Origin: Scenedesmus sp. ARA3
Taxonomy: Eukaryota; Chlorophyta; Chlorophyceae; Sphaeropleales; Scenedesmaceae
DNA: 64,000 bases
Assembly: GCA_004335835.1 (NCBI GenBank)
Contig: RWJK01001950.1
Span: forward strand, 1-64,000
Direction of reading: 5' to 3'
Shown here: piece after piece, positions 17,380 through 64,000 of the stretch
Layout: every line of letters begins with the position of its first letter
Position numbering within the stretch: the first letter of the stretch is position 1
The notes under the pieces: model-generated
Told to the model about the DNA's origin: nothing
The model's database searches: none
What the model saw: the letters and a program-made list of their open reading frames with translations, nothing else
Made by a program: the position numbers and the translations under genes

Positions 17380-17429
17380 NNNNNNNNNNNNNNNNNNNNN
17401 NNNNNNNNNNNNNNNNNNNNNNNNNNNNN
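17380..17429. other. Assembly gap of 50 N
   Basis: Exactly 50 ambiguous bases, so probably a fixed-size scaffold gap of unknown true length. It cuts the 3' part of the gene that begins at 15934. Confidence 0.99.
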
Positions 17430-37407: not shown

Positions 37408-40400
37408 CTACAGATAGTCCACCATGACCTTCACGGTGATCATGTCACCCAGGATCTCACTGAACCTCTTCACCAGCCCATCTACTGCCGTGCACTCTGC
37501 AGCAATCTGCACAAACACCTGGCTCAGCTGCATGCCGCCAGCAGCAGCATGGAACTGCCCGCCAGCTGCCATGGCCATCTGCTGCAGCAGCGGGGTGCCT
37601 CTGCTGTATGACTGCCCAAATGCGATGGTGTGCACCTGCAGGTTCCTGCTGCTGTACTTGGCATGCAGCTGCTGCATGACGCTGACTGGACTGCCGCCAC
37701 CGTCATCACCATCCGACATGAACACCAGGATGGGTGTGAGGCCAGCAGGTGTCGCAGCCAGCAAGCTGTCGCACCGCTGCAGCGCTGGCGTGAAGCAGGT
37801 GCCGCCACCGCTGTAACTGAAGCTCTGAGGAGCTGAAGTCAGCTGCTGCAGCTGAATGGCAACCCTAGGCGAGGAATCAAAGGCAACCACTGACACGTAG
37901 TCGCCTGCGCACTGGTCGCTGGTGCGGCGTGTCAGCAGCTGCTGGTAGGCAGTGAGCAGCTCCTGCCATGGCCTGCGTTAGTGGCAGCCGTACGCAAGCA
38001 AGTCAGTGAGTTATGTTTGCCAACCGGCTTTTGCGCGCAATTGCTGTATGTGACAGCCTGCCTTCGTCTTTGTTCTTCCTCTCAGCAGTCGATCAATCAG
38101 TCAGGTTTGAAACAGCACTTGGTTGAGGACTTCACAGCATTTGCTGCCGCATTTGGGCTTGCTGTACATCATCAGCGTCAAGCTTCCACATGTAACGCCG
38201 GTGGTACTACAGCAGCGCCATTGACACCGCCGCTCACCTGCCGCTCATTGAGCCAGATGAGTCCAGGCAGAACACAAAGTGGAAGGCATGTGCAGGCTGC
38301 TTGCTGCTGTCAAACAGCGGCTCGCAGGACAGCTTGCGGTCCTCAGCTGGGCAGTCATAGTGCTTGCGCATGGCGGCTGCAGTCTTGTCTAGTTTATGGG
38401 CCTGCAACCAATGGCACGCAGGGACACGAAGGTGAAATACAGTCAGGTTCATGTGCGCAGTTGCAAAACAGCAGGATGCGAGTCAGGCACAAACACTTGG
38501 TTGTTGCTGCCACCAACTGGTCAGGAACAAGTACAAGTGCAGCCTGGTGCGATGCACAAGCAGCATGTATGCATCTGAAGAGACAGATGTACATATGTGC
38601 GGGTCCTAGACCCCCCCACCCCCACATTATGTGCATGCAAGCTCACCTTGACTGGCATGACCAGCAGGTCAACGTGCTGCTTGCGCAGCTGCTGCATCAC
38701 GCTGCGCACATCGCAGCCAGGCCGGGGGCTGCCTCCCGGGTGTGCGTCCTTGGGGTCGTCATTGCAGTCCCTGGGGTGGTGCATGAGGGAGTGACAGCAG
38801 TCAAGGTAGAAAGCATTAGCCTTCTTGAAAAGGAAACCTGTGTGGCATGTTTTTGAACCAACCGCGCAACGCTTAAGCACAACAACCAATAGCCCATTGA
38901 AATCAGCAGTGGAAGGTGGATTCAACAGGCACTGCAGGCAGGCCTCCTGCAATTGCGTCAACCAGCCACAGGCGCCACACCTCCGCACACCACATTAGGG
39001 TAGCTGAAAGCGGAACCTTGCGCACACACCGGATGCACCCACACAACCTGCTTTGTACAATGCGAGCTGCCTCACCTGCCGTGCGCTGGCGAGTCTGCGA
39101 TCAGCACCAGGAAGCGCGCCTTGGCCTGCCACTGCAGCTGCGCAGCAGCAGACAGCGCAGCCATCATGTCCTCCGGCTCATCGCCGCCACCCTGCGCCTG
39201 CAGCTCCTTCACCTGCGGGTAGTAGGCGGCCACAGAGAGGTCGCAGAGCACAGGCAACAGCGTGTTATGTCAGAGCATGGTCATGCCACCTACGTGTGCA
39301 GCGCACAAGTGCTTGCACGCTGACACGCTAGCAATTGATAGCACATGGCAGCACACATCAGGCAACTGGAGACTGAAACTGATGCGTCATGACGATCACA
39401 AAAGCTGGCGGCAGATAAATGCCAACGCCGCAGCCAGCAGCGACCACATACCTGCACATGCAAAGCTGCACAGCACAAGCTCCAATGTTAATGCCACCCC
39501 CAGCCCAGCTCACCATGGCCACCAGCTCCTTGCTGTCCTCCGTGAAGGGCAGCTCCTGCAGCTGTTGCGCATCGCCCACGTCCCTGTACGCCACCAAGCC
39601 CCAGCGCACGCGCACGTCGATGTCCTTGCACTTTTCCTGGATCTTGGGCAGCAGGCCGTCCGCAATGGCCTGGATCTGCGCCTTGCAGGCCTCGATCCAG
39701 CCGCTCATGCTGCCGGTGACGTCGATGCAGAAGCACACGTCCACGCTCATCTCATCGGGCTGCGCATGGATCAGCTTGGCCTCCTTGTGCTGGCCCAGCT
39801 GCTTCACCAGGTCGCCAAACACGCTGCTCTGCTGCTGCAGCACCTCCTCCACAGTGGCAGCTGCGCCAGACATCACAGGCATGAGCTCCGTCCAGTCCTC
39901 GCCTGCTGCAGCAGCCGCACTGCCGCTGCTGGCTGCAGCCATGTCATCTGCTGCGTACAGCGCCTGCAGCGCGTCTGGCAGCGCACTCGGCAGCTTTGCT
40001 GTAGCCCAGCGCTGGTAACACATGGGCACGTGGCTGCGGTCAAAGCCCACGCTGAGGCCCACCACCTCCACGCCAGCCTGCTCTGCCTGCTGCAGCGCTG
40101 CTGCCAGGGCCAGGCCGCTGGTGCCGTATCCGTCGCTGATGACAAAGATCTTCTTGGCTGCCCTGCTGTTGCTGCTGCCGAGCAGCGCTGCAGCTGCCTG
40201 GATCGCTGCCGCATCCATTGATGCAAGGTGCTGGTCTGCAGGGAGTGGCAGTGCAACGTGGAGCACCAAACTGCTGAAGGCTGTGCTTTGCGGCCAGACA
40301 ATGCTGGATGTAGGTGACATGAGAGAAAGCATGTGTCACTGCAACATCATGTGCGACAGGGTGGCTCAAACTGGCGAGTGACCTACCTCGGCAAGCAAGC

Positions 40401-43400
40401 ATTAAAGCAAGCAAGCAAGCACGCACACACGCACGCACGCTCGCATGCACGCAAGCAAGCGAGCAATCAAAGCATACAAAAAGCAAAGCAAGCAAGCTGT
40501 GACTGCCATGCTGTCCCATTGATTAGCCCAGACATTCGCAACCTTGACTTCATCCCTCACCTGGCTTGCAGTTGACCTGCTCCAGCAGTGCCAGCTGGCT
40601 GGCCTGGTCCCAGGCCGTGTCAGGCCCCTTGACCAGCACAGGCGCAGCACCAAACGTCATCACCACAAAGTCGTCCAGCCCCACCTTGCCCAGCGCATCA
40701 GCCAGCATGGCCAGCACCTCCAGGCTGCACTGCTGCAGGTGCCCCTGCATGGACTGCGAGACGTCCAGCAGCAGCGCAACCTGGTAGGTGCGCTTGCCGC
40801 CTGCGGTCTTGCGCGCAAAGATCTTGTGGCTGCTGTAGTTGCTGATGACAGCCTTGATAAGTCCTTGCAGGTGCAGGGTGGGGCCGGATTCCTCTGCACG
40901 GCGCCGCGTGTGCTTGTTGTGTGGCAGTACAGCGCCCTCAAGCACCTCCACCAGGCGGTTGACCTGCCCCTGCACTGCTGGCCTGGCCAATGCAAGCCGC
41001 CACTGCTCCTCAACCTGCTGCAGCGCTGTGGAGTGCAGCGGGCTCTGGCGGATGCTACTGCAGTACTCTGCGAGCTGGGCCTGAGCAGCTTCCACCTGCA
41101 GCTGCAGGGCAGAGCTGCTGGCGCTGCTGCTGTCATGAGCACTGCCTGCTGCGTCCTCTGCTGCCAGGGCTGCTGCAAAGGGAATGCTCGCGCCAACAGG
41201 GCTGTGTCTGAACATTGCCGCAGGCTCGACGCCACCCTGCAATGCTGCTGCATTGTAGCTGACCGCACCCAGCGCTGCCAGCCCTTTGCTGAGCACAGGC
41301 AGCAAGAGCGGCTGCGTGCTCACAGATGGAGCGTTCAATCTTGCAAGCGCTGGCAGCTCGGCAGCAGCAGCAAGAGGCTGCATGGTGCTGCTACTGCTGC
41401 TGCTACTGCTGCTGCTAGTGTTTGCTGTGAAGCTGGTACCAGCTGCGCGTGCAGGTTGCGCAGCAGGTGGTGCTGCTGCCAGCTGCAGCTCGCTGTCCAG
41501 GTATGAGGTGATGAGCTTTGCCACCACCTTGGACATGTCTGCTGCGTGCTCCTTGCTGAGGGTCTCTGCGTGGTCTGCTGCTGCTGCCCACAGGTCGTTG
41601 ATGCGGCCCATCATCTCCTCCTGCTGCCTGTCGTACAGGTTGAGCACTGCCAGCTTGATGCCCTTGGGCTGCAGCGCGCTCAGGTAGTCCTGCAAAGCAG
41701 ACAGGGAGCAACAGGGGCCGCAGGGGCAGCAGGCCAGCGGCAGCAGCAGCATTTGCTTATGCCGGAGAATTGCTGATAGGTAGAACATGCAGACGGCCAG
41801 CTGGTGTACTGCACTGCTGTCTTTTGGCACAACTCAAGGCATCAGCACACTGAGAGGAAGAAGCGACATGTCGGTATGTGCGGCTGTTTGGAGCCATTAC
41901 ATCAGGCATAGAGGCGGCCTCACCTCAGCTCGCATCTCCTGAGTGAGACCATCCACCAGAGCTAGCACCAGCCTGTGGTGCACAATCTCAGGGCTGCTGC
42001 TGCCTCCACTGCTGCCCACCCCTGCTTCTGCTGCCGGCAGTGATGCCTGGCCGCCATTGCTGCTGCTGGAGCTGATTGCTGGTGCGTCCTTGAACACCTC
42101 CCGCGCAGCATACTCGCAGGCTGAGGCTGGGTACGTGCCTTCGTCAAACGTCATGGCCTCCAGCGCCAGCTGCAGCGCCTGAGCACTGAAGGGCTCCTGC
42201 AGCCCCTTCAGCACCACCTGCCCATGCGCCCTGCCAAACCGCACCACTGCAAAGCGCATCTCCAGCCGGCGCAGCACCTCAGCCAGCAGCACCAGCGCCT
42301 GCTTGGTCTCATCAGCAAGGCGCGACATGCTGCCGCTGTTGTCCAGCAGCACTGCCACCTCAAAGGAATGCTGCTGCCGCCCGCTGCTGCGCTTGTAGAA
42401 GAGCTCAATGTAGCGCAGCAGCTGCTGCACCACCACCGTGCTGGCCTTCTGCATGGGCGCACTCGCGGCCAGGCGCTGGTAGGTCAGCTGCCCTGTAGCA
42501 GCTTGCAGTGCTGCTGCTGCCGATCCAACAGCTGCAGCAGCAGCTGCGCTGTTGCGCGCAGCACCAGCCGCTGTGCTGCTCCTGCTGCCGTGCTGGCCCT
42601 GCTTGCGGCTGGTGCCTGCCTGCTGGTAGAGCTCTGCAAGGTTGCTGGCTGCCAGCACGTCTTGCTTGATCTTTGGATCGATGGTGATGCGGCCGACAGC
42701 TGTCGTTGCCAGCTCAAACTCTGGCGTCGGGCCGCTGACCTGCAGGCAGCAAGGCAGCCAGAGAAGCAGCAAGGGGCGGAAAGCTTGCTTAGTTGCCTGC
42801 AGGCAGGTCCAGCTGCACCTCGGGCAAACTCAGACGCAGTTGGTGTGTCAAGGGCAACCACCAGTACTTTTCAACCTGTATTCTGTGCATTCTTGGTGGC
42901 CGTTTGCTGCTGCAAACCACCTCACAAACAGCAGCCATTGTCTGAAGTTTTTGTACGGCTGCAATGACGCGTGTTGCGCCTCACATGTAAGCGTGCATGC
43001 AAACCACAGCAGAACAATGCCTGCGCCCATGGCAAATCAGCACTGTACGCAGCCTACCTGCAGGTTTGGCTTGATCTGCACATTCTTGCCCAGAGGCCTG
43101 TTGCTGGGCGGCAGCACCAATCCGCGCCTGTTGGACTTGAGCTGGCCCAGCACGTTCACCTTGCCGCCCGCCAGGCCACCCGGCCACTGCATGCTGCCCA
43201 GCTGCTGGCCGCCCCTGCTGCTGCTGCTGCCCAAGCCTGCTGCCCCGGCTGCATCTGGCTGTGTGCCATCTGCAGCACCTGCTGTCTGCGAGGTATCTAC
43301 AGCCAGATCCTCAGTTGTGACCTCAATGTCCTGGTCAAGGTGCAGCAGGTTGTCAGGCGTGGCTCCCGCTGGTTCTGCTGCTGCCTTGGACGCAGACAGC

Positions 43401-46400
43401 AGACGCGTGCCAGGCATGTGCCCCTCGTCATCCTCGCCTGCTGCTGCAGAGGAAGCCGCCAACTCATCCAGATGCTGCAGGGCGTAACTCAGGTCTGCGC
43501 TGCTGCTGAAGTGTGCAGCCATCTCTGCAAGCTCCCTGGCCTTGGCGTCAGTGCTGTCGGCGCCTGGCAGTGCTGCTGCATCATCCTCAGGCAGCTCAAA
43601 GTCCTCTGCTGCATCTGCTGCTGAAGCGCCTGCCGCGCCGCTGCCATACTGTATGCCCAGCTCCTGCAGCTGCCGCTGCACCTGCGGCGGCAGCCTGTCA
43701 GGCGGCAGAGCAGCCAGCAGGCAGCGGATGCTGTGCTCTTCAACTGCAACTGCCTCTGCTGCACCTTGCTCCATCACACCTGCCTGCAGCTTCAGAGCGG
43801 TGATGGTCTGCAGCATTTGTATGCCCTGCAGGTGCAGCAGTGCGGCGGAATACTTCAGGGGACATGAAACCGTGGTGTAAACGCCTGCAAGTGCACTGCC
43901 CAGTCCATCAACCCGGTGGATAGCAGTAAGCAAGCGCAGGATTGCTGTGCCCGCACATTGTATGCCTGCAGCACAACACAAGCTACGTCACAGCTGCCTG
44001 TCCTAAGCACTACTGCTTGTTCCTGCAACCCTGGCAGGCAGTCACTGCACTCCACATGCGGTTACAACTGCGCATGTGTGAGCAGCACAAGGCCCACCTG
44101 CATGACCATCTCCCCGGCAGCCACAGCCACAGCGTGTGTGGAGCGGCCCTGGATGAGCCTGCAGGCAGAGCTGAAGCCTGGCAGGGGCACAGCAGCAGCG
44201 CAGGCAGATGCAGGCATGGTAAGGTGGTGCACAACCGTGCCTTGCAACAGCCTGGCGTGAAGGTCTACTTGTCCACGTTCATGCGCTGCTGGTGACTGCT
44301 CAGGTGCACAAGCTTTCTGCCATGCGTGTATATCACAGTTGCTGCAGCCATCATGTACGCCAGGGACAACCATGGTGCTGCATCCCACCCTGCATACACA
44401 AGTAATCCACTCGCCATGCTGCCACTAGGTCAGCAGTTTGGCTTGTGTGCACCCACCTGTTTCCCAAGCATTGGCAGCTTGTTTGACATCTGCCAAACTC
44501 TGCATCAGCAGTGTAGCGGCAGGGTAGCCGGCGGCGCTGCTGCTGTCTCCCCTGCCCTGATGCAGTGCTGCAGCCCCTGATGCCAGCTTGCCCCTGCAGC
44601 TGGCCAGGCTGCTGCTGCACTGCTGCATGGCCTTGCTGACACCTTGTGCTAGCAGCTCCTGCTCACGATCCGACAGCAGGGCAGCAGCTGGTGCACTGCT
44701 TGCGTCCGGGCTGCTGTCACTGCTTGCTGCCCCATCCATGGCGCCGGCACTGCTGCTGTCTGCAGCGTCACGCGCATCGTCTGCACTGCCGGTGCTGCTG
44801 CTGTGGCTTTCAAGTTCTGGCTCAGCATTCAGCCCAACTTGGCCACCACCAACCGCAGCAGAAGCAGCGCTGGGCATGGAGCTAGGCTGTGCAGCATGCC
44901 GGGATGTGCGTACGGCAGCCCTTGTGGTGGCTCGCACGTGACTGCCAGTGGCAGCGCGAACCCTTCTGCCTGCGTTGCTGCTGCGGCTGCTGTTCTGTGC
45001 GGCTTCACCACCAGCGTGTGCTGTTGCAGCACTCACGCTGCTGGCTGGTGCTGCTGCACTACCAGCAGTGCTTGCAACTGCACTACCAGCTGCACTCAGG
45101 GTAACTTCAACTGCCTGATGTGCAGAGCTGCTACTGCTGCCCCTGCTTGCTGCACCTGTATAAGACTGGCTAGCGTTGCTGTGGCTGCTGACAGCAGCTG
45201 CGACACCGTCAATGCCGCTGCTGCTTCCAGCCTGTCCTGTTGCAGCATTGCTGCTGCTCCTTGCAGCTCCGCCCAAGCGGGCAGCAATACCCAGGGCTGC
45301 AGCAGCTGATGCTGCAGTGCTGCTGGCAGCAGTGGATGCACCAGCAGCGGCGGCCCCAGCCAGTATGGAGATGGCAGGAGGTACGCTGCCTTGGCCTAAG
45401 CTGCCTGGTATCACACCACCGTTGCCGCCTGCACCGCCAACCGAAGCACCTGACCCGCCACTCCCACCACCACCTGCACCTACACCAGCGGCACCACCAC
45501 TGCCTGTACCAGCTGTGCCGGCACTGCCACCTGCACCAGCAGCACCACCACTGCCTGTACCAGCTGCGCCGCCACTGCCACCTGCACCAGCAGCACCACC
45601 ACTGCCTGTACCAGCTGCGCCGCCACTGCCACCTGCACCAGCAGCACCACCACTGCCTGTACCAGCTGCGCCGCCACTGCCACCTGCACCAGCGGCACCA
45701 CCACTGCCTGTACCAGCTGCGCCACCACTGCCTGCACCAGCGGCACTGTCGCCACCTGCACTGCCAGCAGCACCAGCACTGCCCTGGCTGCCGTTGCTGC
45801 CTGCAGATGCTGCATCACCATTGCCGCCTGTACCAGCAGCACCAGCACTGCCCTGGCTGTCACCACTGCCTGCAGAAGCAGCATCACTGTCACCACCTGC
45901 ACTGCCAACAGCACCAGCAGCACCAGCGCTGCCCTGGCTACCGTTGCTGCCTGCAGATGCTGCATCACCACCGCCACCTGTACCAGCAGCACCAGCACTG
46001 CTTTGACTGCCGCCACTGCCTGCTGCAGCTGCATCGCTGCCGCTGCCTGTACCGGCAGCACCAGCAGCATCAGCACTGCCCTGGCTGCTGCCATTGCCTG
46101 CCGATGCTGCATCCCTGCTGCCACTCGCATCAGCAGCACCAGCACTGCCCTGGCTGCCGCCGTTGCCTGCCGCTGGTGCATCACTGCTTCCAGCTGCACC
46201 AGCAGCACCGGCAGCACCAGCGCTGCCCTGGCTGCTGCTGTTGCCTGCAGATGCTGCATCACCACTTCCTGCACCGGCAGCACCAGCAGCACCAGCAGCA
46301 CCAGCGCTGCCCTGGCTGCCGCCACTACCTGCTGCAGCTGCATCACTGCTGCCGCCTGCACCGGCAGCACCAGCAGAACCAGCAGCACCAGCACTGCCCT

Positions 46401-49400: not shown

Positions 49401-51123
49401 GCAGCTCCTGCCCTGCTGGTGACTCAGCCACTGCCACAGCTGCTGAGATGCTGCAGGCACTGCTGGATGCGCCTCCGCTGCCTCCGCTGCTGCCAGCACT
49501 GCATGCTGACACGCCTGCTGCCTGCAGCTCTGCCACGATGCGCCTGACATCTGCAGGCAGCAGCTGCGACACAATGCTTGCCAAGGCAGCTGTGTCTCCA
49601 GGTGCCCCAGCCACGTACTCCAGCAGCTGCTGAGCAAAGCCCATGGCACTGGATGGCTCAAAGCCGAGCAACTGCATGAGGTGTACTGCCTCCTGGTTGC
49701 TGAGCTCCATTGCCGAGCTGGTGCTGCTGCTGCCAGGTAGGGCTCTGGAGACCAACCAATCTACTGCTGTAGCTGCACTAACAGCATTGGCTGCTGCACT
49801 GGATGTGCTGCAGCTGCTGCTGTTGCTGTGGCAAGCAACGTTAGCCTGGCCTGCTGCTACATCAAGGATGGCCTGCATCCGCTCGGGCAGGCTGGCCAGC
49901 CCCTCCAGTGATGATGCCATTGGCTTCAGCGCCTGCTGCAGCTGCTGGGCGAGCTGCTGGTCCATGTTGCTGGCCTGCAGTGCTGCCACGGCTGCACTCA
50001 CTGCAGGTGGCTGCAGCAGCTCAGGCTCCGCAGAGATCAGGTGCAGCAGGGCGTTGGTGACGGCTGCTGTGTCTGCTGGCGCTGCCTGCAGCAAAGCCGC
50101 ATTGAAGACTGAAAGCTGCTGCGACGCCGTGCCCGCAGCTGCTAGCAGCCCCTTCAAGCTCTCCCAGGCTGCCTGCAGCTCTGGCCTCGCAGCAGCACTG
50201 CCGGTGTCCATCGCCTGAAGCACGTCAGCTGCGCTGAGCTGCCCAGCAAGCAGCAGCGCTGCCTCCATCAGCTGCTGCTGTTGGCTTGTTCCAGGGTTGG
50301 TGTGCAGCCGCTGCAGCAGCGACCATGCCGCCACTGCTGCTTCTGCTGAAGGACCACCAGCTGGCAGTTGAGCTGCCACGACAGCAATGATGCCTGCATC
50401 TGCACCAAAAGCTGCTGAACTGGAGCATACCTGCTGCAGTAGGGCAGGCGGCACTGAGCCCCATGCAATGCTGCGGACGGGCTTGCTGCCTGGCACTGCC
50501 TGAGGAATGCTGGCATTGCTGTTGCCTGGGCTGCCAGCGGCACCAGTGCTGCTGCCGCTGCTGCTGCTGTTGGAACTGGTGCTTGCCGCCGCCACTTCAA
50601 CAAGCACAGGCAGCTGCATCGTGGCTGGCTGCATGTCCATGCCAATGCCATTGAGGCACCTCACGGCTACACGGCTCTGGTACATCCCTGGCTGCTGTCC
50701 TGCAAGCACCCGTACTTCCAGCTGCAGTGCCTGCCCCGCATGGCACACCAGGGGCCTGTCTGCTGCTGACACCTGCCCAGGTATGCATGGATGCAGTGGC
50801 CGCAGTTTGCCTGCGGCACTGAGCAGCACTGCCATCTCAAAGCTCTCATCCAGTTGTTCAGCTTCACAGCTGTTGTACTCCACAGACACGTAAGCAGTTG
50901 CATTGCCAGTGTTGCGGATGCTCAGCTGCCCTGCTGCTGTCGCGCCTGGCTGCAGCTGCTGCAGGTATACTGCCGCAGGCTGCACTTCTACATGTGGGCC
51001 GTTGCAAGTGAGCCTGCAGCTGATCTCTGCAACTGGCTGGTGCTTGCTGTTCGTGCAGATGAGTGTTTTGAAGTCTGTTGTGGCTCCATACACCAGCTGC
51101 TGTGGCCTAGCAGCAAACAGCAA

Positions 51124-51166
<43 letters not shown>

Positions 51167-52626
51167 AAGCTGCTGGTGTAGCTTAACTTGGCTGGCTGCA
51201 GCGTAAGCGGCAGTTTGGAGCTGCAGCATGTCAGCTGCACCTCCTGCTGCTGAAGCTGCGGGCAGAAGTCAACCTCCAGCGGCAGGCTGCCAGCGTTGCT
51301 GATGATGAACTCCCTGACAACACCCCTGAAGCTGCCGTCTGGGCCGCAGTAGCGCTGCTGGAACTTCTTGATGCTCTGCGGCAGTGCATCATCAGGTGCG
51401 TTGATGGTAAACATCACTGGCACCTGGTGCACCTTGAGCTCTGGCTTGCCGTGCGTGATGCCAAGCGCAAAGTGCAGCGGCTGCGGAGTGCCCTGCACAA
51501 CCATCACGCATGGCTCTGTGTAGCTGCCAGGAGGGCACTGGTCAGCTGCACAAGTGACTGGTATGCTAGCGGTGGTGCCCACTGCCACGCTGCCCTGGTG
51601 GCTGCCAAAGCGGCCTGCCGACAGCTCATAGTGCAGCACGGTGTCACCTGCAGGCAGGAGCAGCATAGCAGAATACACACCTTGTGATTGTGTTGCTTGG
51701 AAGCCCAATAGCTGGTTGTTGATTGGTTGCTCTGGTCTCATCAATGTCAGGTACTGGTGGTGGCTGCCAGCCCTACAGTATTCTAGATTTGCGCTACAAA
51801 AGTGTATGTTTCTGCAGCAAGGAATGCAGGCTGGCCGTACATGGACATGCAAGCGGGTTGTCGCATCAACAAAGAGGCCACTGCCACAGTGTGTTTCATG
51901 TCCGCATGAAGATCACCCTTGCACAGACATGCGGGTACAGTTGTAACCACCTGCACCCACCTTCGTTGTGAAGCTGGAAGTCCAGCTGCTCCGACTGGCC
52001 TGGCTGCAGCGGCACCACTGGCACCTCGCTGCGCTGTGCCACCTGCTGCCCGCCTGGCAGCCGCAGGCTCCACACGGGCTGCCGCACCTCAGCACTGATG
52101 GGCACCTCATGAACGCAGCCAGCGCCACCAGCAGCAATCAGCAGCTTGACATCCCTGATGGACTCGCTGCCGCTGCTGCAAGGCTGCATCTGCAGCTGCA
52201 GTGGCCGGCTGGCTTCATACGGCTGTAACACCACTGCGGCTGGCTCTAGAGCAAAGGTGGACTTCATGCCGTGTGGCACCTGCACCCTGCTCTTCAGCCG
52301 CACCGCCACACCAGTGTTGTTGCTGACGCGCAGCACATGCCTCACAGCTGGCTTGTAGCACGGCACTACTCCAAAGTCGATTGCCGCTGTGTCCACTGCC
52401 ACTGACAGCTGCTGGTACTCTGCCTGCACTGCAACGGCCACTGGTGCGCAGTCACCGCCAGCGGGCACCGCCAGCAGGAACTGGGCTGTCGCCTTGCCCG
52501 CTGCCGAGGAAGTGCCTGCCACAATGACAAGCTCAGACGCTCTGCCGGGGCTGATCAGTAGCTGCCGCTTAGGCACCTGGATCACCTGTGCTAGCTCAGC
52601 TGCAGCAGCCTCGGAGCTGCTTCCAT

Positions 52627-52658
<32 letters not shown>

Positions 52659-55150
52659 GTGGTCTCGTCCAGAAGCTGCAGCTGCAAGGGCTTGGAGGCA
52701 GCGTTGATGATGCGCAGGTGGCGCTCCTGCGGCTCTGCGCCAGTCAGCTGCGCGCCAAAGTCCACAGCCACGCTGCCTGGTATGGCAAACAGCTTGCCAT
52801 CAGGCAGCTGGCCAAACCTCACCTCAGCATCATGCGCCCTGGTGACAGCCCCCATGGCTGCTGCTAGCTGCTGCTTGTCCTGCTCTGAGCAGGGCTGTGC
52901 TGCAGCTGCAGCAGCCTGCTGAAGCAGATGCTGCGACCTGTGCAGCTTGCCAAGCAGCTGCTGCCTACGGGCCAGCAGCTGCGCCACCACACCTTCAAGA
53001 TACTTCACATGCTGCGCTGCTGCTGCATTGGCATCTGACCGCAGCAGTGACCTTGCCAGCTTGTGCAGTGCTTTGCTGCCCTGGTTAAACCTCTTCTCTG
53101 CTGCTTGCAGCTCGCTCAAGCTGCCCGCTGTTGCTGCCAAGATGCAGAGGGCCAGGCCCAGCGCCTTGTAAGATGCAACTAGAACTGCATCAAGCTGTGC
53201 TGCCAGCTGTTGCAGCTGCCGGGGTGCATCCTGCTGCAGCGCCTCATGCATGCCAGGGCCGGCCACGCCAGTGATGGGCTGCTTGATGTCACACCCCAAG
53301 TCCATCGTGAGCAGTGGGTGTAGAGGGTACAGCGCACGGTGCTGCAAGCAGCAGGCAGGACATAAGCAGGTGAGATCCTGTTGCAGGCAGCTGCAGCAGC
53401 AATGCAGTGCTTGGATGGCAATCGGCAGCAGCAACGAGGTGGCTATGCAAGGCCATCAGTTGGCCACCACAAACAGGACTGCCAAGCACTTGCACACTTG
53501 AGGTACAAACTTGGAGTGTAACTATGGTGAATTGGCAGCTGATGAGCTGGACACTTATGTATGTCATCGCTTTTGTTTGTGATAACAAATGTTGCAGCAC
53601 AGCTGCAGTGAATTCAGGCTATGATCATGCTAAGCTTGATACTGGTGAGAAGTGAGCAACATTCAAGTGGCACCACATTGGTTTGCAGCCCTCTGACAGC
53701 CACTGTCTTGCGTTCAAGCAGATGCCAGGCACCTCGGCTCACCTGGTTCTGTAAGCTCCTCAGCTGCACCACTTGGTCCTGTACACTGCTGCTGCTCAGT
53801 GCCTGGCACAGCTGCTGCACGGCAGCCTGCATTGCAGCTGCGCCCTGCGGCTCGCCCACTAGCAGGGTCGACAGGCTGCTGCAGGCACCCAGCAGCTGCT
53901 GCACATCTGCGCTGCTGGCAGATACTAGCTGCACAAGCTGCTGCAGCAGCTGTGTGTGCGGGCTGCAGCTTAGCTGCTGCTGCTCCCTCTCCAAGTCGGA
54001 GAGGATCTGGCGGCTGCTGCTCTGCTTAAACTCTTCCGGGTTGGGAGGAGCCGTAGCGACTGAGGTGAAGTTCTTGGCTGCATGCTCGGCTCTGCACAGG
54101 TTGGAATAGCTGGTCTGCAGCTGACGCAGGCAATCCTGCAGCTCTGTCTGCAGCTGGATCAGGTCCAGCCCCTGCCAGTTGCCGTTGTTGGGCAGGCCAG
54201 CAGCATCAGTAGCTGTGCTGCCGCTGCCGGCCGCAGCAACAGCACTCAGGTCACCGCCTGCAGCGTCAGTGCTGGCGCCGCTGGGGCTGCTGTCCATGCT
54301 GTCCAGCTCATGCCCACCCGACAGCGGTGCAAACCTGTCGCTGCTCAAGTTGCTGCTGCTGCTGCTGTTCTCCCGCTGCTGCATTGCGATTGCACTGCTG
54401 CTGCCAGCGCCTGGCGGTAGGCTGCCGCTGGAGTTGTTGCCAGTGCCACTGCAGGCGCTGTCGCTGAGCGCAGCGCCAGCATGCAGCGGCTCCTGCCCTG
54501 CAGCTTGCATGCTGGCATCAGAGCTGCCGCTGCTCTCCGGCTGCTCGTTGGGCAGACAGAGTTGCTGCATGTAGGCTGCTGCTGGCCTGTACTGATAGCT
54601 GAGAGCGCTGACTGTCAAGCCCACCTGCAGGCGTGAACCGCTGCCAAAGGTAATGGATGACCGGTACTTAACAGCCGCCACATCAAATGTGACGGGCTTG
54701 CCCATGGGCACACACTTGCTGAAGTCAGCAGGCCTTTGCAGCATTGCATCGACCACGGCGCCAGCAGCGTCAGCCACGGCACCAACTGCCCGGCGCAAGA
54801 AGCTGCTGTTCTGAGTGCTGTCCTTTGGATCTCCAAAGAACCACGCTGTCATCTGGCAGTTATCAGGGTCGGCAATCTGTATGGTGTAGTCAAACCGCCC
54901 ACCCGTTAGGTTGACTGCTTGCTGAGCACTGCCCTGCACCATAAAGCTGCCTGCTGCAGGCGGCAGCTCCAGCCGTGCATAGCTGAAGCCCTTGAACTGC
55001 TGTCTATCAGCTGAACTCAAGTAATGCCACACAAAGTCGCTGCGGAGCCTGACCTGCCTGGGGCCACGCTCACACTGCTGCCTGATGCGCTGCAGCACTG
55101 GGTTACCGTGCAACGGGTTGGCAGGGGTAGCGTCGCCGGTCACCTGGTGC

Positions 55151-55195
<45 letters not shown>

Positions 55196-58100
55196 GCAGC
55201 ACAGTGACACACTAGCTGAGCTGGTGTAGACACCCTGTCCAGCAAGGCGCATGAGCTGTGGCAGCAGGCAACTGAAAGGCAGGGCTGACTCAGCTTAGTT
55301 CGCCAACTAAGTCAGCACAAAGCGCCCTTTTTTGGGACCAGCCTCTGCGTCCTGGTCATTTTGCATTGTATGCATGATTCATGTGGCACAGCTGTTGAGC
55401 CAGGTCTCTGTACATTTGCCCACGCACCACAAACAGCTCTGTCAGGCCACAGGACCACGTGCTTTTGCCCGCCGCCTGCTGCGCTGTGGCTAGATGGCAG
55501 CACAGCTCAAAGCAGCTCTCCAGCTGGCTCTCCGTGGCGCGCAGCTGCGTGTCAAACTCCTCCTTGGCTAGTAGGCCCTGCTCGTGCATGCGCCTCCATG
55601 CCTCCAGCTCCCCCGCTTTCTGCACAACACAGCAAGCAAGCAAGCAATAAATGTTGTCACTTGCTACCAGCCAGGCGGCAGTCCTGCAGCACATCTCCAA
55701 GCCGCCACATAACTTTTTGTATTATTATGCAATGAGCATTTTATGTTTGGCTGAACAGGTGTTGCTGCAATGGCTGTCTGCATGACCATCTGCATAGGCA
55801 TCAGAGCTGCGAAGGCAACCTGTCGCACATATATGTGCGCATACTTGCCATGCAAACCAGTGCCAGACGCACAGCATGTATGTAGACACGCACAGCATGT
55901 ATGTAGACAAGCACAGCATGTATGTAGGCAAGCACAGCATGTATGTAGGCAAGCACAGCATGTATGTAGGCACGCACAGCATGTATGTAGGCAAGCACAG
56001 CATGTATGTAGGCAAGCACAGCATGTATGTAGACAAGCACAGCATGTATGTAGGCAAGCACAGCTGCCGGCAGTGTCCTGAGGTTGAGCTGCGCTTCAAC
56101 ACCATACACTGCACAAAGAAAAGGCAGAAGCTGCATCAGATCCTTGCAGCCAGCTCTTGCAGCAAGGCAATGCTGTCCATCCCAGCTCACCTGGTGCAGC
56201 AGCTTCTCCATCAGGCCCCGCCTGTCAAGCCTCCTCGCCTCCACCAGCTCATCACAGCCCTGCTGCCACTTCTTCAGCACTGCTGCCACCTCAGCCTCAC
56301 GCTGCAGGAAGCCCTCAGGCTTGATGCCTGACAGCACCTGCTGCAGCTCCCCACACACAACAGCAGACACCTGGGAGTACGCCCAGTCCTCCTGATGCTG
56401 CAGCCGGGTGAGCACACTCAGCAGCCCATCAGCAGCTTTGGCGGCGCCGCTGCTGCTTTCGGCAGCATCCAGCTTGCTAGTTGCTGCCTTGCTGTGGCTG
56501 CTGCTGCCCATGCTGTTGGCGCCTGACAGCAGCTCTTGCAGCAGCATCTCAGCTGGCAAGCTGCTGCTGCTGCTGCTGCTGCTGCCATCTTCCACATCAG
56601 CAGAGCTGACACCAACTGCTGGTGCCTCTTGTGGCGCATCTGCTGCTGCTGCAGGCCCACCCTGATCCCGTAGGTTGCTGACATCAACCTCTGCTGCAGA
56701 GGGCAGCGCCTGCTGGCTGCCATTGCTGTGGCTGCTTTGTGCGCCGCTGCTGACAGCAGAGCAGGCGTCACTGATGCTCTGCAGGGGCTGCTGCAGCAGG
56801 CGCTTCCCAAGCAGCGCATTCCTGCGGTGGTCGTCCAGCAGGCTCGCAACCCGCAGCACTCTGGGGCAGAAGTCATACACGGAGTGCAGCAGCTGGCCCT
56901 GGCCTTCAATGCCATGCCGCAGGCACGCCTCAATCACCTGGTGCTCTGCAATCCACGCCAACACAGCTGTGCTGCCTGGCTCGAGCTGGCCCGCTGCCTC
57001 TGCAGGGCCCCGCGCCTCCAGCAGCTTGAGCACAGCTGGCAGCTGGCTGGGGGCCAAGCAGCCAAGCTGGATGAGCTGCCAGTCTGGAACAAAGCCGGCG
57101 ATGTCATTGCTGCTGCTGCAGGTGTCTGGCAGGGCCCGCCACAGGCTGCTGCTGCTCGTCTGCATGTGCTGCAGATGCTCCTCCTGGCCGGCTTGCACCT
57201 GCACGCATAACACGCACATGCCGAGTCAGCAACAATCAACTGATGGCAGGCTGCTAGGATGGTGGTTGCCTGCCTGCACGCTGCTGGCAAGAGATGCAGC
57301 AGCGCTGGTTGCAGGGGGCGAGAAGTTCAAGCAGCAGCAACCCTGGTGCCTTTGCTTGCGCGAGTTTACTTGCAGAGTCCTGCCAATCACATTCTAGAGA
57401 TACGCCAGTCAACCACAATCTCATTTCAACAAAGCAACGACAACGTGTGAGTGCAGTCAGGAGTAGTCCAGCGGACTAACAATCACCTGGTATGCAAATG
57501 CCTGGTCCACAAGGGTCACTTCTGCCTTCAGCACCTCCTTTTGCAGCAGCTCGCCCCTGCCGCACAGCATGCGGCAGCAGGGCTGCAGCTTGGGCCTGCC
57601 CTGCTCCATCTGCTCTGTGCAGCTGCTGAGAGCCAACTTGAAGCCGTCAAGCAGCTCGCTGGCGCCGCTGCTGGCAACAAGGCCCGTCTCTGGCGAGGCG
57701 CTCACATCTAGTTGCATCAGCGCAGTGAAAGCACGCAGCAGGCCCTGCACTGCTGCGGCGTCTGCGCCGTTGAGACACTGCGCTGCCACTGACTGCTCCA
57801 GCAACTGCAGTGGGCTGCCTGGCTCCTGCTGTGCACTCACAACAGCAGCGGCAGCAGTGCCAGTGCTGGTGGTTGCTGCTGCTGGCATGCTCACAAACAG
57901 GCTCTGCTTCATGGCCAGCAGCACGTCCACAAAGCGCAGCCCCAGGTACGAGGCAGGCAGGAATGCCCTGCCAGTGGCATGTAGCTGCATCTCTGCAGCC
58001 TGCAGCATGGCAACCGGGCCAGCTACAGTGCCTTGGCGGCACTGAAGCAGTAGCCAGTCAGGGTCTGTTACAGCAGCTGCTGCGTAGGGCAGCAGCTGCA

Positions 58101-61100
58101 TCTGGTGCCTGATAGGTGCCTGCAGGCTTGCAGCCTCATGCGGCATGGCTGCAAGGGCGTCTGCAAGTCCCAGCTGCCTGGCCGTAGCCGCTGCTTTCCT
58201 GCCCAGCTCATCTAGGTCAGCGCTGCTGGAGGGGTGGTGGCAGCGTGCCAGGCGGCAGCACAGCAGCAGCAGCTGCACTGCCACACGCTGCAGTGCCATG
58301 CAGCTGTCAGCAGCAGGCTCCAGCCCTGCAGTGCTGAAGGATTGGATGTGCCACTGCAGCGAGTTCTTGGCAAGTGGCGCTGCTGCCTGAGCTGCTGCTG
58401 AGAGGTGAGCTTGCTGCTGCGGCTGCTGCAGCTGACAGATGAGCAGCACGCTGTGTGCAGCCTGCAGCACCTGCTGTGCAGTGGCTGTGCGGCTCCTGCT
58501 GGCTGTTGCCAGCGCATCTAGATCCTGCTGCAGGTCATGCACCAGCTGCTGCAGCTTTGGGTGCTGCTGCTGTAAGCAGCTGTAGCTGTCACTTGTGGCC
58601 AGCGCCTGGTGCTGCTGCCACTCGTCAATGCAGCTGCCGGTGCTGCTCAAAGCCACTGCCAGGGTATCTGCAAGCCAGGCGAGGCCTCCTGCGAAAGGAT
58701 CTCCAGCCTGGAACTCATCTGCAAGGCCCTTCAGGCGGTCGCAATCCTCCTGCAGCAGAATGTTCAAGCACAGCTGTTGAGGTAACCACATCGACACACC
58801 CCATCACACAATCCAGGTGCAGTTCATCAATGTCCACCCTGCTGAATTGCAACAGGTGCTGCCTGCATGTGTGCAATACGCGCATGTTCAAAGCTGATGT
58901 GAAGGTTGTGACCTGGCCTGCTTGGGCATGCAGCTGCCCGGTCTGCAGATTCCCTGTGCGCCTTCCTGTAGTGCGCATGCAAGACATGGCCTGCGCAGCT
59001 GAGACTCCACGGTAACGCCACCCACCTGCAGCTGTTGCACGGCGGCTTGAACCTGCCGGTGGCTGGTGAGATCCAGCGCCTGGCTGCCGTCTGCCTTTGC
59101 CACTGCCTCTGCCAGCTGCATGTGCAGGCCAAGCTGCTGGCAGTGAGCAGCCACTGCAGAGGTGTCAGACACACCAGCCGCTCCTGCCCAGTTTGCTGCC
59201 GCAGCCGCTGCTGTAGGAGCTACTGCGCCTGCTGTGCTCCTGATCAATCCAGCCACTGCATATGACAGCTCAACCAGGACGTCAGCAGCAGCCTGCACTT
59301 GCTCAGCTGCAGCGCGCTGCTGTGCAACGTCTCCTTCAGCCGCCAGCTCTGCCTCCTGTGCTGCCAGACGCTGCACAACCTGTTGCTGCTGCTGCAGCCG
59401 GCTTGTTACAGCTTGCTGCTTGGCCTGCTCTGCTTCAACCATCTTGACAATCTTCTGCACCTGCTGCTCCTGGGCACGGCTGGGCTTGAACTGGTGGCTG
59501 AGCTCAGCCTCTGCACGCTGGCGCTGCCGCTGCAGCTCCTCAAGCCGCTCCTCGAGCTTGTCGATGTCGCTGCATTAGCAACAGATTGGCGATAGATAAG
59601 GATATGTTAATTCGTTGACCACACATGTGCAACCTCAAGGAGGGGAAGCACGCCTGAGCAAGGAGAAGCAGCCACCCAAATCGACCAGAGCAGTTGTGAA
59701 GCTGGCTCGAAGCAGGTGCGCTGCCATGCTTTGTACAACTGAAGCAGTCTTGTCTAATATGTCCTGTGGATGCATTGCTGCTGGATTGATGCAGCTGCGC
59801 AGCTGCACGCAAGTTGCCGTACGCCCTGCTGGCAAGCCGCCTTGCACTTGTACAGGACTGCCAAGCAGCAGCACATACCACCGCAAGATGTACGCAAAGC
59901 AACACAGGTACAAGACTAGGGTTGCATTTGCCAAAAGCAGGCAGCCCACCTTGATTGGCGCAGCTTTGCCAACTCCGCTTGTGCTTGCCTGCGCTGAGAC
60001 TGAACTTGTGCTAGGTGCTGCTGGTGCTCGCGTGCAACCGCTGAGGATGTCCTGACAGCAACACGGCCCTGCAGCTGCTCAACAGCACTGCTGCAGCAGC
60101 TAGCAGCAGCCCCGCATGCAGCGGCAAGTGCCATGGCTGCTGCCAGCTGGCTCTGGATGCTGCTGCTGCTCTTGCCGCCAATGCCTGCCGTGCAACCTGC
60201 ACCTGTTGCGGCACCTGCTGTGATCTGTAGCTCACGCAGCCCTTGCTGCCATGGCAGCAGCCACGATGACACCTGGAACACCTCTACAGCACCCTGCTGC
60301 TGCTGCTGCTGTTGGGAACCGCTTGCGATGTAAGCAAAAGCAGCTGCTCCGCCTTGACTTGACGGCACAAAAGCTGCTGCTCGGTTGGCCACAAGCTGGT
60401 CGGCCTGGCTGCAGCCTGCCAGCGTGAGCATGAGTGCCTCGTCCTGTGGCGCAACGAGTGCTGCCGCATCCAGCAGTGTCAGGCCCAGGGGAGCCAGCAC
60501 AGCCGCGCACTTGGTGGTGCCACTGCTGATGGTGTCAGTGAGCGCTGCTGACTGGCGGTACAGCAGCTGCAGGTGCTGGAACTGCCCGATGAGGCTGTCA
60601 CCCAAGCTGGAGATGCCATTGCTGCACTCTGCTGCCTCCTGCAGCTGCCGGCACAGTGCAGCTGTGTCTGCGTAAGTCAGCTGGTTGCTGTGCTGCAGGT
60701 GCTGCGTCCGGAACGAAGCATAGCCTGCAGCAACCTGCAGCAAGAAGTCAGGTGGCAGCTTGGCCGGCCTGCTGCTGCTGCTGTTGGCCAGGCTGTGCTG
60801 CTGCAGCTTCACAGCTAGGCGATCTGGCGATAGAACAGCACACAACGCAGCCAGCTCAGCAGCTAGCTGCTGCGGCTGCTGTGTGTCGTCTCCATGCTCC
60901 GCTGTCAGCTGCTTGCACACTTCCAGAGCCCTGAGCCAGCTGCTGCACTGCATCTTGGCCTGCAGCAGTGCCTCAGCTGCGTTGATACTGTCCTGGTGCT
61001 GTTGCAGTGCCGTGGGGTCCAGCAGCATGCTGTCAAGCTCTGCAAATGCTGCCTGCAGCTGCACTAACTGCTCTGCATCAACCAGCACTGCATGGCTGCC

Positions 61101-64000
61101 AATGCTGCTGCCCAAAGCAAGCTCCTCTGCAGCTGCCTCGCCCGCTGTGCGCTGCCATGCTGCTGCTGGGATGCTGCAATCCTCCTGCTCCATGCCAGCT
61201 CCCATGTACGGTATCTGCCTGTACAGAGGGTTGCTGGCCTGCAGCTCCACAATGTGGCTGCGCAGCTTGGAGCGCAGCCCATTGATCTGCATCTCCAGCT
61301 GCGAGATGGTGTGCAGGCTGATGGTGGCCAGCTGCTGGCTGCCTGACATGTGCCGCACCTCAGCAAGCACCTGGCAGATGGCGCTCACCTGCAGTGCACC
61401 ACAGCAGCAGTCGCGTTGGTGTTGATGTATAGCAGAGAACAGCCAGTGGCAGACACACAGCGCATGCCGCGCAAGGGAGAAAACGGCACATGAATGTACG
61501 CTGTCATAACTTGGTACCCTCAAATTGACAGCAAGCTACAGTAGTGGCAGCAACTGCGGGCAGCAAAGCCCACACGGTTGCAAATCAAGGAGGCAGCAGA
61601 CTACACTGTTGACCAGGCATGTACAACAGCCACACACTGCTTTTGCAGGCCACCCTTGCGCCAGCAGCAGCCCAACAGCACCCGCCACTCACCAGGGCTC
61701 CCGGGCTGGGCTTCACTCCCCTTGCCTCCGCCAGCAACCTGGCCAGCTGCTGCTCTAGGCTGGACAACATCTCCTGCTTCTGCTGCAGCCGTGCAGTTGC
61801 ATTGTCAAGCACTGCCCTGGCACGCAGCTGCTGCCCTGCTCCATCTCCCGCGTCCTCTGCTGCTGCTACTGCCGCCACTATTGGCGCAGTCAGCAGCTGC
61901 TCAAAGGACACGAGCAGGCCAGCAAACCCACGCTGCTCAACTGTGCTGCGCGGTACCACCAGCTGCTGCAGTATGGCCAGCAGCTGCTGGTCATACAGCT
62001 GCAGCTGCTCGACAGTGTGCTGCCTCACCAGCCGGATGCTGCTGTTGGTGGCCTCAAAGCAGCCCAGCACGTCACCACAGACCTGGATGAGGAATGCTGC
62101 TGCGGCTGGTGCTGCTGCATACAGCTTGTCTGCCATGTCCTGCTGCCCTGCCAGGGGGCTGGAACCTAGCTGCTGCTGTGCAGAAAGGCTAGCAACCTTG
62201 CAGAGGCCCCGCAGCTTGCTCACCAGCTGAGTGTACTGCAGGTATGTGTCTGCGCACCCCATCTGATCCTTGATAGCTTTGGTGAGGCGGCGCAGCTCCA
62301 GCGCGTGCGGCGCCTGCTTAGACAGCTGCTGTAGCTGCGCCAGCATGCGCTGGCCAGCTGCCAAGCTGGTTACGCGCAGGTGTCTGTCATGCAGCTGGCG
62401 CACGTGCTGCTCTAGCTCCTGTGCCTGGCTGCGCAAGCCAAACACAGAAACAGGCATGGCCTTCATCTTCTGCTTAGCAGCAGTTGCTTCCGAGCGCACA
62501 TCTGTAGAATCTAGCACATCTGCAAGGCAGTCCTGCAGCTGCTGCACCTGCAGCAGCAGCTGCTGGGCATGCTGAAGCAGCTTGATCTGCTCCTGGTTGC
62601 TGTGCTGCTGCAGCGCTGCTGCCAGGAAGCCTTGAGCAGCTGCGCTTGCTGCTGGTGGTGCTGTTAGTGTTTCAGCACCTGGAGACCCCGCTGTGCCTGC
62701 CAGCACCAGCTGCTTGACCCTGCTGCTCAACAGCACCAGCAGCTCGTGCTGCGCCTCTGCTGACTCATCATCATCTGCTGCTGTTGCTGACAGATAATGT
62801 GGCTTTACCTGCTCCATGCGTTGCGGCTCCTCCTCCAGCCAAGCCTGCAGCGGCGCCATCACATCTTGCATGCTGCTGCTATCAGCAACCACATGAGCAG
62901 CCGATGGTCGTCCAGGCTGCTGCTGCCACACCAGCGCAGCAGGGCAGGCTGCTGCATCTGCACTGCTGCCGTCCACCACCAGCAGCACTTGAAGACGAGG
63001 TGCACCAGCCGCCGTGCCATCCAGGCTGCTGCAGGCTGCCTCATGCAGGCTGCAGAGGGTGTCTCGCAGGTCATCAAGCTGCAGCACCTGCACTGCCGTA
63101 ATGCTGGCTGCTGCAGCCGCAGGCAGGCCAAGCAGCAGGTCAGCCCAGCAGCTGGCAAGCGCGGGCGACAGGCTGGCAGCGCCTGCACCTTGCAGGCAGC
63201 GCCCAAATTGCCCAGACTGAGCTACATGCAGCGGCAGAGGCTGAGACCCGCCTGCTGCACTTGCTGCCCCTGCCGCCTTGCAGTCTGCCAGAAGTGCCTC
63301 TGCGAGGCTGCTGTGGGCCGTGCACTGCGTGTGAGACAGCCACCTCAGCAGCTGGCATGCATCCTCACCATCTGCAAGCACATCAACTGCTTCGGCTGCT
63401 TGCTGGAGACTGGCAATAGCTGCATTACTGTGCAATGCTTTGAGCTCTTGCTTCTGCTGCCTCTTCTGCTGCTTCCTCTTTGCCTTCTGTTTCTTCTTGA
63501 TCCTGCTGCCTGTCCTCTGGCGGTGGCTGGCATCTGCACTGCTGCCGCCAAATGATGCCCCCTGTGCAGCCTGGCTTAGCGCCTTGTCAGCGCCCTCCAG
63601 AGCTGCAGCCAGCCCATTTGCCAGGGTGGCTTGACAGCTGAGAACTGCCAGCCTGTCAACCAGCGCTGCTGTGATGCCAGGCCCCTGGCTGGCCCCAGCA
63701 GCAGCAGCCAGCAGCAGCGACTCTGGCAGCATGAGGCCACTGCACCAACGGCATGCTGCTAGCTGCAGCAGCACTGACAGCCGCTTCAGCACCAGAGCCT
63801 GCTCCTCCTGCCCTTGACGCAGGCTCTGCTGCACAATGGCGCTGATGGTGGTGCTGATGTCATCGTGACAGTGCCAGATTGGCCGCAGCAGCAGGCTCTG
63901 CAGCTGCCACACCAGCGCCCTGTTGTGGCTTTTTTCCATCAAGTAGCTGGCTTCAAGCATGCTGCTGCCCAAAGCATGGCTGCAGAGCTCCTGCTGCCAC
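37408..64000 (-). CDS. Giant multidomain protein with four C-terminal VWA domains (5' end outside window)
   Basis: Eighteen visible exons (5' to 3'): 64000-61693 (open at the window edge), 61388-59950, 59569-59026, 58749-57487, 57198-56191, 55619-55428, 55143-53743, 53341-51961, 51647-44457, 44177-44098, 43825-43058, 42739-41924, 41689-40561, 40235-39514, 39212-39076, 38770-38647, 38401-38238, 37972-37408. All joins keep phase, giving 21,232 nt and 7,076 residues before the stop at 37408. In order, the protein has a long Ala/Gln/Leu helical and coiled-coil region (to about residue 2250), a mixed beta-rich segment, ASH/Hydin-like beta-sandwich repeats (about 2900-3600), more helices, a Gly/Ala/Ser-rich tract, and four VWA domains (about 6240-7040). 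No Walker A motif or AAA unit was seen. VWA domains bind partners through a metal-ion site. A huge intracellular scaffold or cytoskeletal/ciliary role is inferred. The least certain junctions are the exon starting at 43825 and the donor at 55428. Confidence 0.82.
37480..38290 (-). other. VWA domain 4 of the giant protein
   Basis: Encoded by the last two exons (38401-38238 and 37972-37408). The metal-ion site reads FCLDSSGSMSGRPW, with the phase-2 intron between Gly and Pro. The second metal loop is GGGTCFTPAL, the third is FMSDGDDGGG, and a final beta strand is QVHTIAFG. This is the closest of the four to classical VWA proteins. Confidence 0.85.
38647..39760 (-). other. VWA domain 3 of the giant protein, VwkA-like
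   Basis: VDVCFCIDVTGSMSGWIEAC is the DxTxS metal-site variant seen in alpha-kinase VwkA-type VWA domains. It continues with VRWGLVAYRDVGD, then GGGDEPEDMMAAL and FLVLIADSPAHGR, over exons 40235-39514, 39212-39076 and 38770-38647. GGDEPEDMMAAL followed by DSPAHGR is characteristic of that subfamily. No kinase domain follows. Confidence 0.85.
39960..40795 (-). other. VWA domain 2 of the giant protein, midasin-like
   Basis: The metal site VALLLDVSQSMQGHL and the strand DFVVMTFGAAP lie in exon 41689-40561. The second half, KIFVISDGYGTSGLAL and VEVVGLSVGFDRS with KLPSALPDAL, lies in the next exon. The order and spacing resemble the MIDAS domain of midasin (Rea1/MDN1). Confidence 0.8.
40395..40490 (+). 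repeat. Degenerate CAAG/CACG tetranucleotide repeat in an intron
   Basis: CAAG and CACG/CGCA units run through the intron 40236-40560 of the giant gene. Confidence 0.75.
41600..42370 (-). other. VWA domain 1 of the giant protein, midasin-like
   Basis: The metal site is VAVLLDNSGSMSRL. It is followed by RRLEMRFAVVRFGRAHGQVV, a TFDEGTYPA loop, and HHRLVLALVDGL. The last strand IKLAVLNLYD falls in the following exon. LEMRFAVVRFG plus a FTFE/MTFDE loop is typical of the midasin MIDAS domain. Confidence 0.8.
45410..47690 (-). repeat. Gly/Ala/Ser-rich coding minisatellite in the giant gene
   Basis: About 760 residues of imperfect units of the kind SQGSAGAAGAAGAGGSSDAA (15-30 residues each), ending with simpler (GGAAGTGSGGAAGA)n units at 45480-45740. 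All are in frame on the minus strand within the 7.2-kb exon. The composition (Gly, Ala, Ser, some Asp/Thr/Val) recalls silk fibroins and elastin-like linkers. The DNA is so depleted in stops that other frames on both strands also stay open. Confidence 0.9.
50580..52825 (-). other. ASH/Hydin-like beta-sandwich repeats of the giant protein
   Basis: Several consecutive units show the ASH (ASPM-SPD-2-Hydin) pattern. Examples are SVAVDFGAQLTG with LRIINAASKPLQLQLL, then AAIDFGVVPCYKPAVRHVLRV with SNNTGVAVRL and ALEPAAVVLQPYE, then EFIISNAGSLPLEVDF and LSIRNTGNATAYVSVEYN. Such Ig-like domains are common in ciliary and centrosomal proteins and in membrane-coat relatives. They span exon 53341-51961 and the start of the 7.2-kb exon. 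Confidence 0.6.
51126..51165 (-). repeat. Triplet tract encoding poly-Ser in the giant gene
   Basis: A CTG run on the plus strand, read as AGC on the minus strand, encodes about 13 serines between two ASH-like units. Confidence 0.8.
55150..55194 (-). repeat. (CTG/GCT)n tract at the end of an intron of the giant gene
   Basis: A triplet run directly before the GCGCACCAG acceptor of exon 55143-53743. Without splicing it would read as about 16 alanines. Splicing is supported because the upstream open frame ends in an unrelated stop-containing stretch and the phase matches the previous exon. Confidence 0.65.
55869..56057 (+). repeat. Nine 21-bp tandem repeats in an intron of the giant gene
   Basis: Nine head-to-tail units of GCACAGCATGTATGTAGGCAA, differing by G/A at two positions. 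They lie in the intron 55620-56190. Because 21 is a multiple of three, the repeats also stay open as protein (LAYIHAV units on the minus strand), but a clean GT donor at 56190 places them outside the coding sequence. Confidence 0.9.
59026..59569 (-). other. Coiled-coil exon of the giant protein
   Basis: This exon encodes DIDKLEERLEELQRQRQRAE and further Glu/Gln/Lys/Arg-rich heptads up to about VEAEQAKQQAV, followed by an Ala-rich helix. It is the clearest coiled coil in the window and suggests oligomerisation. Confidence 0.7.

Follow-up and report, generated by a model that had tools for sequence, protein, structure and literature searches.

A probable second midasin-class AAA+ protein, highly diverged and with four C-terminal VWA domains, from a giant gene of Scenedesmus sp. 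ARA3

What kind of protein is encoded by a very long minus-strand reading frame of the green alga Scenedesmus sp. ARA3, and does it belong to a known family? The window analysed here is a stretch of 64,000 nucleotides, bases 1-64,000 of contig C1525 (127,482 bases), from a genome assembly of 87.3 Mb in 1,567 contigs. The initial annotation of this window had joined 18 exons, ending at position 37,408, into one frame of 7,076 residues that was still open at the window edge. It described coiled coils, ASH-like repeats, a silk-like Gly/Ala/Ser tract and four tandem VWA domains at the C-terminus, and it regarded the protein as a candidate new system that matches no described family. We find that the gene structure largely stands as described. 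The reading that no described family is matched fails, because the N-terminal third of the protein, which reveals the family, lies beyond the window.

Our own splice model recovered the giant frame with 17 exons and 7,096 in-frame residues in the window, the stop codon ending at 37,408 (Table 1). This part is the C-terminal rear two thirds of the gene. The exon at the window edge extends to 64,497, hence the frame is indeed open there, and 17 further exons lie beyond the edge. The full model contains 34 exons and 11,149 residues (about 11,150), and all 33 of its introns have GT-AG borders. A candidate exon of 80 bp at about 44,098-44,177, outside the 17-exon model, may be the source of the small difference in exon and residue numbers from the initial annotation. 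Extension to the right toward the start, which had been proposed as a check, followed the gene from 37,408 to about 81,170 of C1525. The start codon is provisional: residue 2 of the ortholog P0001 aligns to residue 4 of the model, in a small exon at 81,112-81,170. The model was trained on open frames. The Gly/Ala/Ser tract and one acceptor were adjusted, the tract, which stays open in a single frame, being modelled as one exon on that ground and the acceptor being placed by P0001. One upstream candidate exon was left out, as P0001 gave it no support. An open frame of 630 aa resembling leucine-rich repeats, upstream of the giant gene (C1525 91890-93779, minus strand), was judged unrelated and was also excluded. 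The longest minus-strand open frame between 37,408 and 64,000 has 2,495 aa; the longest is 498 aa in 200 first-order Markov resamples and 927 aa on the actual plus strand. One intron of the gene harbours a 21-bp minisatellite of 9.3 copies (window 55869-56064), which is open in the frame of the preceding exon.

Table 1. Features of the giant gene. Positions are those of contig C1525, with which the window shares its numbering.
Feature	Position	Strand	Basis or remark
Giant gene in window	37408..64000	(-)	splice model, phases, collinear ortholog P0001
Window exons 1-6	64000(64497)-61693, 61388-59950, 59569-59026, 58749-57487, 57198-56191, 55619-55428	(-)	
Window exons 7-12	55143-53743, 53341-51961, 51647-44457, 43965-43058, 42739-41924, 41689-40561	(-)	
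Window exons 13-17	40235-39514, 39212-39076, 38770-38647, 38401-38238, 37972-37408	(-)	
AAA1	about 77741-76780	(-)	
AAA2	75516-74714	(-)	
AAA3	74071-73115	(-)	
AAA4	72248-69387	(-)	
AAA5	68784-67990	(-)	
AAA6	67049-65307	(-)	
Coiled-coil-like heptad stretch in stalk	59346..59568	(-)	by eye
ASH / HYDIN-like Ig-like block	50583..52825	(-)	sub-threshold Pfam; ASH at cut-off in P0003
Gly/Ala/Ser-rich low-complexity tract, 815 aa	45402..47844	(-)	in frame, about 81% G+A+S
VWA1	41629..42370	(-)	DNSGS 42343-42329; one intron inside; Pfam VWA 24.6 bits on exon
VWA2	40041..40789	(-)	DVSQS 40765-40751; one intron inside; MIDAS-like with upstream segment
VWA3	38649..39750	(-)	DVTGS 39723-39709; introns inside; Pfam VWA_4 59.1 bits, joined tail
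VWA4	37611..38284	(-)	DSSGS 38263-38249; one intron inside; Pfam VWA_2 29.1 bits on exon
C-terminus VMVDYL + stop	37408..37443	(-)	DYL end common to P0001 and P0003

The N-terminal third, upstream of the window, contains a long N-terminal region followed by six AAA modules of the midasin (MDN1/Rea1) type. Pfam AAA_5 exceeded its cut-off in four upstream exons (modules 1, 2, 5 and 6), and modules 3 and 4 fell under it on single exons, the module 4 exon with 21.6 of the 22 bits required. The midasin lid PF17867 scored 30.4 and 32.2 bits in two upstream exons (cut-off 22.7); PF17865 reached 14.7 bits on this gene, below its cut-off. Searched alone against solved structures, the AAA5 exon matched midasins with E 7e-83 and cytoplasmic dynein with E 1.1e-6.

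Six Walker A/B pairs lie in one frame. The pairs are GPTGVGKS/DELNLAP in module 1, GPAAVGKT/DELNLAD in module 3 and GPPGIGKT/DEINLAP in module 5. Those of modules 2, 4 and 6 are GRDGSGKS/DGLGEA, GPTCFKSK/EDFDGP and GETCSGKT/DNFNTAP, respectively. Modules 2, 4 and 6 therefore lack the usual Asp-Glu of Walker B, and in module 4 a proper P-loop is missing too. Both motifs are intact in modules 1, 3 and 5 only, and P0001 has the same odd-even pattern. Judged from these motifs, the alternation would set the ATPase activity of the ring.

At the other end of the protein, the four tandem VWA domains of the initial annotation were recovered when Pfam was run on the joined tail, where the profiles VWA_2 (E 1.6e-35) and VWA (E 1.8e-31) each matched four stretches. 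On individual exons only VWA1 and VWA4 passed a VWA cut-off, and VWA2 and VWA3, both split by introns, stayed below. The metal sites had been named beforehand as a test, and the motif was located in each of the four domains: DxSxS in VWA1, VWA2 and VWA4, and DxTxS in VWA3, where Thr replaces the first Ser. The later Asp motif is also present in all four. VWA2 together with the segment preceding it matched the MIDAS domain of midasin, both in the solved structure 6or5 (E 2.8e-6) and in Balamuthia midasin (E 8.6e-11). VWA1 and VWA4, each searched alone against solved structures, gave no match, and a search of NCBIfam gave no useful match. In a search for further copies, a 427-aa query from VWA2 hit a single locus of the genome. 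With six AAA modules and midasin lids upstream and a MIDAS-like VWA2 in the tail, the protein does have a described relative.

A long stalk region lies behind the ring and is followed by an ASH-like block. The ASH-like repeats of the initial annotation stood in part: in this protein the best Pfam score of the block was 20.3 bits against a cut-off of 25.5, whereas ASH in the distant relative P0003 reached 27.0 bits at a cut-off of 27. The top sub-threshold matches of the block were Ig-like domains of the HYDIN, CFAP65 and Cep192 type. Two AlphaFold runs of the block without an alignment gave mean pLDDT values of 33.5 and 32.7, too low to be informative about its fold. The silk-like Gly/Ala/Ser tract was confirmed in length and frame (Table 1). 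It lies between the stalk and the VWA domains, the place of the acidic segment in midasin, and by its composition it is a possible tether. No Asp/Glu-rich segment was found in the giant protein: any 200 aa scanned contained at most 21% D+E, that maximum lying within AAA4, against a maximum of 54% per 200 aa in Balamuthia midasin. Elsewhere in the window, Ala/Ser/Gln-rich open frames at 18150-19747 on the minus strand contain repeats such as SEAFSDALVQSFRSAQ, silk-like by eye, and an assembly gap of 50 N is present at 17380-17429.

Midasin is usually seen as a single, essential ribosome-assembly factor, and its MIDAS domain holds UBL-bearing assembly factors on the pre-60S particle. The same genome contains a canonical midasin on another contig (C1010:151,076-178,326, minus strand), with one C-terminal MIDAS and an Asp/Glu/Gln-rich segment in its translation. 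A rough model of 6,634 aa, in which part of AAA2 is missing and part of AAA6 is probably misread, aligns with Balamuthia midasin over the AAA modules, the linker and MIDAS. In genome-wide searches the one PF21108 match and both PF17867 matches were located at this gene. The giant gene is absent from the genome-wide PF17867 list, and its own lids pass only in single-exon scans. A genome search for NLE, a candidate partner, gave two weak matches on one contig. Because the canonical midasin is a separate gene, the giant gene is a second gene of the midasin class.

Three homolog searches, scoring 1,105, 968 and 1,349 candidates, yielded 2, 3 and 1 proteins, respectively, two of which were the query itself. 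With so few relatives recovered, the distribution of the family is badly sampled. The ortholog P0001 (EukProt, 5,975 aa) is collinear with the giant protein in nine blocks, which extend from close to the start as far as the final residue. Its identity is 53.6% over 5,408 residues of the giant protein and 77.5% from before VWA2 to the end. The annotated P0001 has neither the Gly/Ala/Ser tract nor VWA1 and little of the ASH block; it jumps from inside the first ASH-like repeat straight to the segment preceding VWA2. This missing middle may be an assembly or prediction gap. Another protein found, P0002, is Balamuthia midasin.

P0003 (JGI metagenome, 4,567 aa) carries VWA domains besides its ASH match and is perhaps cut, because its first residue is Val. 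Its tail is 34.2% identical to that of the giant protein over 1,011 positions, and the four metal motifs are present. Pfam found no AAA module in P0003, thus the linkage of the ring to a four-VWA tail rests on the giant gene and P0001. When five parts of the giant protein were compared with four parts of P0003 by hhalign (20 pairs), the VWA parts aligned with E 4.2e-78. The ASH parts were in register but weakly matched (E 0.023, 2.1% probability). The other 18 pairs had E values of 0.05 to 0.78 and so give no homology support for the stalk or helical parts of P0003. As a homolog-search query P0003 found itself only.

A protein of Mesostigma viride, P0004 (3,767 aa), has one VWA similar to VWA4 (39% identity over 30% of the query). 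Its architecture is odd, combining a VWA with several AAA modules and cysteine-rich repeats; these repeats and its different AAA modules led us to reject it as an ortholog. In scans for a prokaryotic or viral origin, 546 pattern matches in genome contigs included one weak VWA relative (a Bryobacter MAG), and no relative was seen among 169 pattern matches in viral contigs. These scans are weak tests, because each used only two short patterns from a two-row alignment.

The relation of the ring to midasin was examined in a tree of 24 modules, six each from the giant protein, P0001, Balamuthia midasin and the C1010 midasin. Modules 2 and 6 of the C1010 model entered it with incomplete or doubtful second halves. 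The even modules separated from the odd ones (UFBoot 96, FastTree 0.98). Module 3 of the giant protein grouped with midasin module 3 (UFBoot 56, FastTree 0.83), and other one-to-one pairings with midasin were not found or were without resolution in this tree. Between the giant protein and Balamuthia midasin, module 3 shows 43% identity. The best BLAST matches to Balamuthia midasin were at the same position for modules 2, 3, 4 and 5; the exceptions were module 1, which prefers AAA3, and module 6, which slightly prefers AAA2. An old divergence suits the tree and BLAST results better than a recent copy, with the reservation that long branches could mimic this pattern.

The giant protein thus shares with midasin six AAA modules in one chain, their odd/even split, the lids, a long region behind the ring and a MIDAS-like VWA. 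It differs in its size of about 11,150 aa, its ASH-like block, its Gly/Ala/Ser tract and the absence of an Asp/Glu-rich segment. Midasin has a single C-terminal MIDAS, whereas the giant protein has four VWA domains, of which the second is the MIDAS-like one. The Walker pairs are intact in modules 1, 3 and 5 here but in modules 2 to 5 of Balamuthia midasin; the motifs of modules 2 to 5 of the C1010 midasin also served for comparison. Because the protein lacks the acidic segment of midasin, its single terminal MIDAS and its pattern of ATP sites, we call it midasin-class and not midasin.

Dynein heavy chains also hold six AAA modules in one giant chain, and the AAA5 module resembles theirs weakly. 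The fit to midasin is far better, however, and unlike dynein the giant protein has VWA domains. The Dynein_heavy domain (PF03028) had at least 21 matches on at least 12 contigs of the genome, none on C1525 among the matches listed; the same domain is named in the precomputed domain lists of both P0001 and Balamuthia midasin. We therefore rejected the gene as a dynein. The block matches the Ig-like repeats of the ASH, HYDIN and CFAP65 proteins at the sub-threshold level, and the giant protein differs from these proteins in its AAA ring and VWA domains.

Since its ring and VWA2 are of the midasin type, the giant protein is not categorically new, and the proposed new system gives way to a divergent member of the midasin class. 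The most probable reading, in our judgement from sequence comparison, is that the gene product, an AAA+ mechanoenzyme of about 11,150 aa, is a second member of the midasin class, highly diverged and acting as an ATP-driven remodeller of another client. The ring would drive the movement of the stalk with ATP used in modules 1, 3 and 5, and the Gly/Ala/Ser tract would replace the acidic segment as a flexible tether. A metal ion bound by the VWA domains would mediate their grip on the client, in the manner of the MIDAS of midasin with its UBL-bearing partners, and the ring would then detach the client from a complex or extract it. Since the canonical midasin is also present, the pre-60S ribosome is probably not this client. 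We suggest more tentatively, and as somewhat short of likely, that such proteins are an old class of AAA motors with six modules in one chain, the third after dynein and midasin. Its marks would be an alternation of intact (1, 3, 5) and degenerate (2, 4, 6) ATP sites, ASH repeats behind the stalk and a gripping tail of four VWA domains, and it would be retained in distant lineages for a task outside ribosome assembly.

A ciliary or basal-body version of this machine is a less likely alternative. The ASH-like block would serve as its anchor at the axoneme or transition zone, and the ring and VWA domains would assemble or remodel ciliary complexes. The HYDIN/CFAP65/Cep192-type matches of the block and the ASH match of P0003 point in this direction, and the genome has ciliary genes: besides the Dynein_heavy matches there are five radial spoke matches on C867 and three IFT46 matches on C1338. 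However, ASH domains occur in non-ciliary proteins too. We consider it improbable that the protein is mainly a structural scaffold, its ring having few functional ATP sites or none and its VWA domains serving as adhesion modules. The degenerate motifs of modules 2, 4 and 6 are consistent with such a role, but the intact Walker A and B of the odd modules, in P0001 as well, argue against it.

It is very improbable that the splice model has merged two or more separate genes. A boundary could hide in the long low-complexity tract, a part that P0001 is without. Against this, one uninterrupted frame of 4,567 codons in P0003 includes both ASH and the VWA tail, in agreement with the one giant gene of the initial annotation; P0001, itself a gene prediction, joins the ring with VWA2-4; and the intron borders are regular throughout. 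That the giant gene is simply the ordinary midasin of the alga, as its ring, lids and VWA2 might suggest, can practically be dismissed, given the canonical gene on C1010, the fourfold VWA tail and the low D+E content.

If the giant gene is a second midasin-class gene, a huge machine would have been co-opted to act on a different client, its grip made fourfold and its pattern of ATP sites altered. The protein would offer a natural comparison with midasin for how ring, tether and metal-dependent grip divide the work, and it may carry out a remodelling step that has gone unrecognised in algae.
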